Shown here: positions 53,030 through 55,338 of the stretch, piece after piece
Numbering within the stretch: the first letter of the stretch is position 1
Layout of the letters: each line of letters opens with the position of its first letter
Source: Pyxidicoccus parkwaysis
Lineage (GTDB): Bacteria > Myxococcota > Myxococcia > Myxococcales > Myxococcaceae
NCBI RefSeq assembly: GCF_017301735.1
Contig: NZ_CP071090.1
Span: forward strand, 8,794,001 to 8,858,000
DNA length: 64,000 nt
Reading direction: 5' to 3'
Notes under the pieces: generated by a model
Databases searched by the model: none
Told to the model about the DNA's origin: nothing
The model's input: the letters and a program-made list of their open reading frames with translations, nothing else
Made by a program: the position numbers and the translations under genes

Positions 53030-54796
53030 GTGTCTTCGCCAGAAAAGTCCGCCACGCCCCAGCTCCCCACCCGCGTCACGTTGCGCCGCCTGCTCACCCT
53101 CGCGCGCCCGGAGCTGCCGTTCATCATCGCCGGCACCGTCTTCCTGCTGGTGAGCAGTGTGTCGACGCTCGTCTACCCACGCGCCATCGGTAATCTGGTG
53201 GACGAAGCGCTCAGCACCCGCAGCCAGGAGATGCTGGACGGGCTCGCGCTGACGATGCTCGCCGTCTTCGTGGTGCAGGGCGTGGCCATGGCGCTGCGTG
53301 CCTACTACTTCAACACCGCCGGCGAGCGCGTGGTGGCCCGGCTGCGCAAGTCCCTCTTCGGCGCGCTGCTCTCGCAGGAGGTCGCCTTCTTCGACGCGCG
53401 CCGCACCGGCGAGCTCACCAGCCGGCTCGCCTCGGACACCACCGTCCTGCAGAACACCGTCACCGCCAACATCTCCATGGCGCTGCGCTACGGCGTGCAG
53501 GCCCTGGGCGGCGTGGCGCTGCTCTTCTACACGTCCGCGCGCCTCACCGGCGTCATGCTCGCCATCATCCCCGCGGTGACGATGGGCGCGGTGTTCTACG
53601 GCCGCCGCGTGCGCGTCATCTCCCGCCAGGTGCAGGACGCGCTCGCGGACAGCACCAACGTGGCCGAGGAGGACCTGTCCGGCATCCGCACCGTGCGCTC
53701 CTTCGCCGCCGAGCGCAACGAGCTGGAGCGCTACGGCGCCGCGGTGGACCGCTCGTTCTCACTCGCGCGGGAGCGCACGCGTCAGTCCGCCATCTTCATG
53801 GGCGCTGTCTCCATCGCCGGCTACGGCGGCATCGCCGTGGTGCTCTGGTACGGCGGCCGGCTCGTGGTGCAGGGCCAGCTGAGCGTGGGCGCGCTCACCT
53901 CGTTCCTCATCTACACCATGCTGGTGGCCTTCTCCTTCAGCGCCATGGCCGAGCTGTGGGCGGACTTCATGCGCGCCAGCGGCGCCGCGGACCGCGTCTT
54001 CGAGCTGATGGACCGCGAGCCCGCAATCGCCTCCGGCGGCGCGCAGCTCCCCGAGGTGCGCGGCCACGTGGAGTTCCGCGACGTGCGCTTCGCCTACCCC
54101 ACGCGCTCGGACATCACCGTGCTCCAGGGGCTGAATCTGGAGCTGCGTCCCGGAGAAGTCGTCGCGGTGGTGGGCCCCTCGGGCGCGGGCAAGTCCACGC
54201 TGGCCTCGCTGCTGTCGCGCTTCTATGACCCGCAGGGCGGCGCGGTGCTGCTGGACGGCCACCCGCTCACCTCGCTGGACCCGGAGTGGCTGCGCCGCAA
54301 CATCGGCATGGTGGCGCAGGAGCCGCAATTGTTCTCCTGCTCCATCGCGGACAACATCCGCTACGGCCGGCCGGACGCCACCGACGCGCAGGTGGAGGAG
54401 GCCGCGCGCGCCGCCAACGCCCACGCCTATATCCAACGCTTCCCCGAGGGCTACGGCACCCAGGTGGGCGAGCGCGGCGTGCAGCTGTCCGGCGGCCAGA
54501 AGCAGCGCGTGGCCATTGCGCGCGCCGTGCTGAAGGACCCGCGCCTGCTCATCCTCGACGAGGCCACCAGCGCGCTCGACGCGGAGAGCGAGCACCTGGT
54601 GAAGGACGCGCTGGAGCGCCTCATGAAGGGCCGCACCACGCTCATCATCGCCCACCGCCTGTCCACCGTGGCCAACGCGGACCGCGTGCTCGTACTGGAG
54701 GGCGGCCACGTCATCCAGAGCGGCACCCACTCCGCCCTCATGGGACAGGACGGCCTGTACCGCCGCCTGGTGGAGCGACAATTCGTCGCGGCCTGA
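53030..54796 (+). CDS. MsbA-like ABC exporter (fused permease and ATPase)
   Basis: 588 aa, half-transporter length. Six transmembrane helices (about 30-310) precede the nucleotide-binding domain: Walker A GPSGAGKST, Q loop VAQEPQLFS, signature LSGGQKQRVAIARA, Walker B LLILDEATSALD and H loop IIAHRLS. It works as a homodimer. The type (lipid flippase MsbA or a multidrug/peptide exporter) is not decided by sequence; its position next to kds genes makes lipid A-core transport attractive. The GTG start is preceded by TAGTCT and no ribosome site, so it may be leaderless. Confidence 0.93.
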   Translation: MSSPEKSATPQLPTRVTLRRLLTLARPELPFIIAGTVFLLVSSVSTLVYPRAIGNLVDEALSTRSQEMLDGLALTMLAVFVVQGVAMALRAYYFNTAGERVVARLRKSLFGALLSQEVAFFDARRTGELTSRLASDTTVLQNTVTANISMALRYGVQALGGVALLFYTSARLTGVMLAIIPAVTMGAVFYGRRVRVISRQVQDALADSTNVAEEDLSGIRTVRSFAAERNELERYGAAVDRSFSLARERTRQSAIFMGAVSIAGYGGIAVVLWYGGRLVVQGQLSVGALTSFLIYTMLVAFSFSAMAELWADFMRASGAADRVFELMDREPAIASGGAQLPEVRGHVEFRDVRFAYPTRSDITVLQGLNLELRPGEVVAVVGPSGAGKSTLASLLSRFYDPQGGAVLLDGHPLTSLDPEWLRRNIGMVAQEPQLFSCSIADNIRYGRPDATDAQVEEAARAANAHAYIQRFPEGYGTQVGERGVQLSGGQKQRVAIARAVLKDPRLLILDEATSALDAESEHLVKDALERLMKGRTTLIIAHRLSTVANADRVLVLEGGHVIQSGTHSALMGQDGLYRRLVERQFVAA

Positions 54797-54893
54797 ACGC
54801 TTGCCCGCCTTTCAGGCCCGTTAATGGGTGCAAGGAGTATGGCGCGGTATTTCGGCCGGGGTTAGATCCGCCTCCTCGAAAGGAGGTGATGCC

Positions 54894-54941
54894 TTGACCG
54901 ACAGCAACTTCAAGGCGTCCACCTCCGCTTCGCTGGCCTGA
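54894..54941 (+). CDS. Possible 15-residue leader peptide
   Basis: TTG start just after a perfect AAAGGAGGTGAT ribosome site; the peptide is MTDSNFKASTSASLA and its stop lies inside the next hairpin. Rich in Ser, Thr and Ala. Translation could control folding of the following stems. The very strong site supports ribosome loading, but the hairpin would hide it, and no gene follows closely enough to prove attenuation. Confidence 0.35.
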   Translation: MTDSNFKASTSASLA

Positions 54942-54978
54942 AAAGGCCGCGCAAGCGGTGGCAGACGCCGGCAGTTCG

Positions 54979-55013
54979 GGCCCGTTCCCGCCTCGGTGGG
55001 GACGGGCCTTTTT
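54979..55013 (+). terminator. Intrinsic terminator
   Basis: GGCCCGTTCCC (54979-54989) pairs with GGGGACGGGCC (54998-55008) with one G-U pair and an 8-nt loop, followed by five T. It is the clearest intrinsic terminator in the window. It ends the structured element and lies 92 bp before the next gene. Confidence 0.85.
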
Positions 55014-55104
55014 ACGTCTGCTCGGGAATGCCCACCCCACCTCCCTGTTCCGACGCCCCGGGGGGAGTGGCCGACCCAACACGTTTCAAGCCCGGAGTTC
55101 CGCC

Positions 55105-55338
55105 GTGTCCATCACCCCTTGCCCCAGCCCCCTGCCCACAGCCCTCCGTGACGAGGAGGCCGTGGATACGCAGCGCAACCTGTTCTGCCCGAACTACGAC
55201 GCCTGCCTGCACCTCGTGGTGAAGCGCGGCTGGGAGGGCTGGAGCTGCCGCAACTGCGACCTCCGCAAGTTCCGCGTTGGCCAGCCAACGGCCCAGGAAT
55301 TCGCGGTCGCCCGGCCCGGAGGTTGGGACGGCAACTGA
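55105..55338 (+). CDS. Small zinc-ribbon protein
   Basis: 77 aa from the GTG at 55105 (CGGAG 7 nt upstream). A four-Cys site FCPNYDACLHLVVKRGWEGW followed by SCRNCDLR binds zinc by pattern; this motif type occurs in small deltaproteobacterial proteins. No function is known; a DNA- or protein-binding role is possible. The gene lies between the structured RNA and pyrG; 72 bp separate it from pyrG. Confidence 0.7.
   Translation: MSITPCPSPLPTALRDEEAVDTQRNLFCPNYDACLHLVVKRGWEGWSCRNCDLRKFRVGQPTAQEFAVARPGGWDGN

Follow-up and report, generated by a model that had tools for sequence, protein, structure and literature searches.

What is encoded in the gap that separates an MsbA-related ABC transporter gene (53030-54796) from a gene for a CxxC protein of 77 residues, with pyrG and kdsA behind it, in Pyxidicoccus parkwaysis? 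A sequence-only reading of the window, the 64,000-nt stretch of this 13.2-Mb, single-contig genome that we analysed and to which all positions refer, had proposed a structured transcript that hides a ribosome-binding site. Comparison of homologous loci identifies 54878-55013 as a conserved, free-standing RNA gene of ~140 nt. The region 54861-55015 folds with a calculated energy of -88 kcal/mol, compared with -60.1 ± 4.2 kcal/mol for shuffled sequences (z = -6.7; 0/200 shuffles as stable).

Architecture and distribution of the element

All parts of the element lie on the forward strand. It begins with a 13-nt complement of the 16S rRNA 3′ tail (54878-54890), the first four bases of which, GAAA (54878-54881), are predicted to remain free of pairing in the lock and form the proposed toehold. 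Region 1 (54882-54897) comprises the Shine-Dalgarno sequence (SD) and the start codon and is the predicted 5′ arm of a lock hairpin, 1:2. The 3′ arm of this hairpin, region 2 (TCAAGGCGTCCACCTCC, 54910-54926), is an anti-SD/anti-start arm within a frame that runs from TTG to TGA (54894-54941; peptide MTDSNFKASTSASLA) and has the 15 codons that the sequence-only reading had stated. A stretch that overlaps region 2 (54914-54939) is the 5′ arm of an alternative stem, 2:3, whose 3′ arm, region 3 (54944-54969), lies 3′ of the stop codon. The pairing of region 1 with region 2, exclusive of 2:3, is a conserved alternative that is absent from the sequence-only reading.

The strong terminator proposed for the 3′ end was recovered by a terminator scan as a 14-pair stem (54978-55009) followed by a T run (to 55013). 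The scan reports two terminator-like sites in 3 kb, a number that is unremarkable by itself because shuffles give 1.0 ± 1.0. Among 40 sequences, 13/13 modelled terminator pairs vary on both sides. Two stems with GNRA tetraloops had also been described: the second has a GAAA tip, and the other loop is CGAA and thus not of the GNRA type.

Direct reading suggests a putative promoter-like block, TGGCGC-N14-GGTTA, at 54840-54864 on the forward strand, and a loose TGGCGC-N14-GATTA-like block is located at most 75 nt upstream in 39/63 sequences. A sigma-70 scan of both strands, restricted to one promoter type, found no promoter-like site. If the promoter-like block does serve as the promoter, the 5′ end of the transcript would be at ~54874, within the 5′ hairpin that had been thought to hide the SD, and part of the left arm of this hairpin would be lost. 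The hairpin does exist in the window, with 8 bp over the SD, but it reaches at least 7 pairs in 10/63 sequences only and is therefore not a generally conserved lock. A GCCC-loop-GGG[C/T] hairpin with TTCG, TGCG, or TACG loops is located immediately 5′ of the SD in 18/18 loci of two clades (L108-L124 and L127) and is missing in the Myxococcus type.

BLAST searches of 61 genomes revealed the element in 27/27 genomes of the genus, including the source, and gave clear matches in three other members of the family, which we take to be Myxococcaceae. An exact-pattern scan of named genomes returned 26 stretches from Myxococcus (including M. xanthus AM003), Corallococcus, Archangium, Pyxidicoccus, and Citreicoccus, from three MAGs of Myxococcaceae, and from a record that bears the label Comamonas. 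The latter (Comamonas sp. KCTC 72670) bears a Myxococcus-type element and is probably mislabelled. A first covariance model matched 82/96 family genomes at E values of up to 1. A second model gave one strong match each in 85/96 family genomes (E = 2.7e-7 or better) and no match in the other 11; five family genomes have extra weak matches (E of at least 0.0019). The second model also matched two genomes in another family of the order (G059, E = 9.3e-8; G042, E = 4.7e-6) and, weakly, two genomes of family f3, and the covariance search over 195 genomes of the phylum found no further element.

The pattern AAAGGAGGTGRTGNNDTG has exactly one match per genome in 88/195 genomes of the phylum, with none for the reversed control. 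One of these matches, in G155, was rejected as an ordinary gene start with a long lipoprotein-like frame and no hairpin. The pattern adds G056 and G125 from family f7, in which it is present in 4/12 genomes, and G037 from family f2. These three genomes are outside the matches of the second model and were assigned from the pattern and from folds; G037 was also matched by the first model (E = 0.002). The same plan is thus found in some genomes of two further families.

Two other kinds of origin were considered and rejected. A multicopy element is at odds with the absence of a second copy from the genome, where the next match has E = 0.077. A phage origin was considered since an 18-mer of the element occurs in five viral contigs; model matches are weak in three of these (13.6-16.1 bits) and absent from two, and we take them as chance. 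Rfam, which had been suggested as a check, returned no match at curated thresholds for the window and 10 related loci, and only sub-threshold hits such as anti-hemB (20.3 bits versus the 49.5 needed). Literature searches, whose scope mostly excluded subscription journals, had no description of the element among the matches listed. The RNA family is real and, within the reach of these searches, new, which bears out the suggestion of a new structured RNA; it is akin to SD-locking mini-mRNAs and stand-alone leader RNAs.

The counts of aligned sequences given here derive from 69 alignment matches from 57 sources, of which 12 reverse-strand matches were dropped. The larger set of 63 sequences, the window's included, consists of a set of 55 and eight distant sequences. 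L125 and L126 are excluded from the 55-sequence counts, and the same places enter the 63-sequence counts as L152 and L145. Near-identical loci of the genus (L009, L015, L017, L019-L021, L029, L030, L032, and L034) were excluded, and L035-L037 were replaced by longer stretches of the same places (L129, L128, and L118). Matches in other family genomes, e.g. G061-G064, G072, and G076-G078, are omitted from the sequence counts. One step used 50 of the 55 sequences and another used 40.

Complementarity to 16S rRNA and two exclusive helices

The 16S rRNA tail of the source genome, ...GGATCACCTCCTTTCT, is complementary over 13 nt to GAAAGGAGGTGAT, confirming the perfect ribosome site that had been claimed. 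The 12-mer AAAGGAGGTGAT occurs at two sites in 13.2 Mb, in the element and opposite the 3′ end of the 16S gene, and its reversed control at none. A genome of 13.2 Mb is expected to carry several copies of the 16S rRNA gene; a single 16S rRNA match was found in the one contig. The motif GGAGGTG[AG]T is present in 63/63 sequences. The four bases 5′ of it are GAAA in 58/63 sequences and CAAA (2), GAGA (1), AAAA (1), or GGAA (1) in the others, and outside the stems this GAAA is the sole stretch that stands out as conserved across clades. GAAA is unpaired in the lock yet can pair with UUUC in the 16S tail, a pattern that suggests selection on the contact with 16S rRNA.

The sequence comparisons argue that the element forms two mutually exclusive helices, 1:2 and 2:3, with compensatory change in each. 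In 2:3 and the terminator, both sides vary in 31/34 pairs (40 sequences), 88.7% of cells pair compared with 68.9% after shuffling, and the covariation score is 0.483 versus 0.179 for shuffled alignments (0/500 as high) and at most 0.113 for slid ones; these figures lean towards the model because the alignment was fitted to that structure. An alignment-free swap test points the same way: each sequence's own post-stop stretch beats those of other groups in 59/63 sequences, and 0/100000 group permutations are as good. Among the stems in which compensating changes had been anticipated, the second stem and the terminator have them, and the 5′ hairpin lacks general conservation.

For 1:2, the evidence of compensatory change comes from the distant types. 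Within the family, columns of 1:2 do not covary (161/500 shuffles reach the single double change, and the score lies under that of the shuffles) because region 1 is nearly invariant. In the distant types, the start codon and linker vary jointly with the in-frame arm, giving the covarying pairs CCUUG/CAAGG, GACAUG/CAUGUGC, GCAAUGG/CCAUUCGC, GCGAUG/CAUGCGC, and UUCGUG/CACGGC. In an alignment that includes five of the eight distant sequences, three pairs vary on both sides, as in 0/500 shuffles; this alignment was made from 33 loci, with L143, L149, and L152 missed at the cut-off and one reverse row (L113) kept. Only 8/362880 group permutations are as good as the observed arrangement, identity and ties counted. 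The per-sequence swap of 1:2, won by 40/55 sequences and by 46/63 in the larger set, counts against the lock. None of the 15 sequences of clade D wins this swap because their G-rich region 1 pairs well with any arm.

Predicted folds place 1:2 in 11/12 representative types, with 15-22 pairs in total; the helix begins at the first G of GGAGG or one base further on and leaves GAAA free. The twelfth type, L143, has an irregular fold. Partition-function calculations pair the SD within the frame in 63/63 sequences before region 3 is made, a state with P above 0.7 in 57/172 strong-SD ordinary starts from the same loci versus 63/63 for the element; these control starts were picked mechanically and may include false ones. 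Once region 3 has been synthesised, this pairing of the SD is still predicted in 48/63 sequences, and at full length in 47/63, with or without a 14-nt leader. Since the lock prevails in 47/63 sequences at full length, 2:3 alone is not predicted to open it in most. In the window's own RNA, the SD resides in the lock with P = 1.00 without the leader and P = 0.04 at full length with the 14-nt leader, because the 5′ hairpin of the sequence-only reading can take the SD; this hairpin is a likely competitor of the lock. Calculated duplex energies are -24.5 kcal/mol for the 16S tail with region 1, -28.3 kcal/mol for 1:2, and -39.8 kcal/mol for 2:3 including its tip, suggesting that 16S binding and 2:3 would jointly exceed the lock, as judged from isolated duplexes.

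Frame, neighbours, and rival explanations

The frame is open in 63/63 sequences and comprises 14-16 codons in the set of 55 and 13-19 in the eight distant sequences. It starts with TTG in 55, ATG in 6, and GTG in 2 of the 63 sequences, and all three stop codons occur. The start codon is separated from region 2 by 23, 26, or 29 nt, a single frame in 55/55 sequences. Over all codons, pN/pS is 1.72 (18 sequences), 0.94 (14), and 0.49 (15) in three groups that comprise 47 of the 55 sequences, the 8 with another clade or length being excluded; the value of 0.49 suggests mild purifying selection on the peptide in the group of 15. Peptides of distant types have almost nothing in common (MTDSNFKASTSASLA, MHSHEQGTISAETL, and MSDAYRRSDLRTAFAALWA), and the translations read as hydrophilic by eye. 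The peptide is conserved weakly at best, and the frame is conserved as a frame.

The CTP/Kdo operon adjoins the element in the window, as had been noted, but this arrangement is inconstant and other genes flank the element in other clades. CxxC and pyrG genes flank it as in the window in 36/56 loci, and 35 of these 36 also have the ABC gene on the upstream side. In the other 20 loci, none of the ABC, CxxC, and pyrG genes is present in the flanks, mostly 3 kb on each side and shorter at contig ends. Neighbours were typed in 18 of these 20 loci, and in 9 of the 18 the element is followed by a gene on the opposite strand. In clade D, 11/15 loci have a common upstream gene, which in L124 encodes a SpoIID domain (PF08486; L124:1820-2902). 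Three loci of another clade face a gene on the other strand that we take to be MATE-like. Different neighbours still surround the eight distant loci, and in three of these the next gene is on the opposite strand (frames called mechanically). Because the neighbours vary and frequently lie on the other strand, the element can be classed neither as a leader of pyrG nor as Pxr, and the unit therefore comes with a terminator of its own and probably with a promoter as well.

The CxxC protein itself (55105-55338; 77 residues, CxxC pairs, GTG start), which is encoded 5′ of pyrG in the 36 loci, has no match in Pfam or NCBIfam. Between the terminator and this gene (55023-55104), CGGGAATG is present in 6/6 aligned sequences, and CTGTTCC plus GGGGGGAGTGGCCGAC are partly kept in 5/6 and degenerate in L035. 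This block is perhaps a promoter or operator of CxxC-pyrG.

The same neighbourhoods bear on the idea that the element is a leader or attenuator of whatever gene follows, in the window the CxxC gene with pyrG. The prevalence of CxxC-pyrG downstream and the leader-like combination of a frame and a terminator speak for it; however, these genes are missing from the flanks of 20/56 loci, the next gene is often on the opposite strand, the fixed same-strand downstream gene of a cis-attenuator was not found, and inspection of the folds by eye showed no antiterminator arm that competes with the terminator. We consider a leader highly improbable. Less remote, if still rather unlikely, is a tiny mRNA that serves to make its 13-19-residue peptide, with the lock and latch doing no more than time the synthesis. 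Frame, start, and stop are kept in 63/63 sequences, codons 2-6 of the 16-codon group (15 sequences) have a pN/pS of 0.31, and such peptides can act in trans, as described for rnTrpL/peTrpL (PMC7298713). Against this explanation, pN/pS is 1.72 and 0.94 in the other two groups, the peptides of distant types are nearly unrelated, and RNA pairing can account for the core that is shared.

It is improbable, too, that the element acts as a base-pairing small RNA, in which freed region 2 (with the anti-SD-like CCACCUCC) or region 3 would pair with target mRNAs. Other small RNAs make use of CCUCC-type stretches, and a free-standing unit with a strong terminator would suit this role, but regions 2 and 3 drift together, fitting intramolecular pairing, and the only stretch outside the stems with notable conservation between clades is the GAAA 5′ of the SD. 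The in-frame SD-sequestering hairpin of aapA3 (PMC6733600) is a precedent for a type I toxin mRNA whose SD hairpins are metastable; such an mRNA would be expected to encode a small hydrophobic toxin. The peptides here look hydrophilic on reading and show poor conservation, there is one strong match per genome, and no promoter-like site was found on either strand by the scan for one promoter type, which detected none for the element itself either; we regard a toxin as extremely unlikely. We give almost no credence to chance hairpins: GC-rich intergenic DNA folds readily, but the z score of -6.7, the covariation, and the absence of matches to the reversed pattern all oppose this explanation. Pxr of Myxococcus, which the sequence-only reading had wished to see eliminated, is like the element in being myxobacterial, intergenic, ~100 nt long, and built of stem-loops. 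It was rejected by comparison of loci: the element sits between the ABC and CxxC-pyrG genes in Myxococcus-type loci, and Pxr, which is described with a sigma-54 promoter, lies elsewhere, beside pxrR/nla19 (MXAN_1078 to MXAN_1079/1080; PMC5568312, PMC5684412). M. xanthus reportedly lacks hfq (PMC5684412).

A proposed switch keyed to the ribosome

We are evenly divided on whether the element, a free-standing RNA gene of ~140 nt in Myxococcaceae and some relatives of the same order, works as a ribosome-keyed RNA switch. In the mechanism that we propose for such a switch, 1:2 would form once the frame has been transcribed, and translation would be held off. The free 16S 3′ tail of a 30S subunit would dock on the unpaired GAAA toehold and then invade GGAGGUGAU, opening 1:2. 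Freed region 2 would be captured by region 3, and 2:3 would latch the site open. A translating ribosome would clear 2:3, and the RNA could relock behind it. The output would most likely be the state of the RNA together with the act of translation, not a specific peptide.

A more specific version, which we advance tentatively and think somewhat unlikely to hold in full, is that the element is a natural, gene-free toehold switch with the ribosome as its ligand: the 16S tail would invade a frame-encoded lock, the post-stop arm would act as a latch, and translation would reset the RNA. Synthetic toehold switches likewise lock the SD and start codon in a hairpin, which an invading strand opens after docking on a toehold. 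The element differs from these in being natural, in its proposed trigger, the 16S 3′ tail, and in having its lock encoded in the frame.

Several described systems share parts of this design. The type I toxin mRNA of aapA3/IsoA3 from Helicobacter pylori likewise has a small frame and SD-sequestering hairpins, one of them within the frame, and its control has been proposed to be co-transcriptional and metastable (PMC6733600), as we propose here. The element differs in its drifting peptide, hydrophilic by reading, in the lack of any visible antisense antitoxin (one promoter type scanned), and in its 13-nt 16S complement with a free toehold and post-stop latch arm. Like the element, Sinorhizobium rnTrpL/peTrpL is described as a short RNA that ends in a terminator, carries a 14-codon frame, and has alternative stems; it is freed from the trp attenuator before trpE(G) and starts at its own ATG (PMC7298713). 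In contrast, the element has no constant downstream gene, and its very strong SD is itself the part that is proposed to be switched. Extended-SD starts of Staphylococcus aureus resemble the element in long SD pairing near the start and in small regulatory frames (PMC13009471). There the extended SD is described as a species-wide feature of initiation, whereas the 12-nt core found here occurs once outside the 16S gene, in a predicted bistable RNA. aapA3, rnTrpL, and extended-SD starts are the closest described analogues that we found, and, as far as the descriptions that we drew on extend, none joins all these parts in a gene-free unit.

The element is an RNA gene with a near-maximal ribosome site that is kept across Myxococcaceae and absent from Rfam. 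The combination of a kept frame with a weakly kept peptide makes it a clean case in which translation may matter for itself. If the switch works as we propose, it would be a natural RNA that senses ribosome availability via the 16S tail, and it would allow a direct test of the idea that the anti-SD can open structured start sites by strand invasion. Should the toehold-switch reading be true, the RNA would inform the cell of its free 30S capacity.
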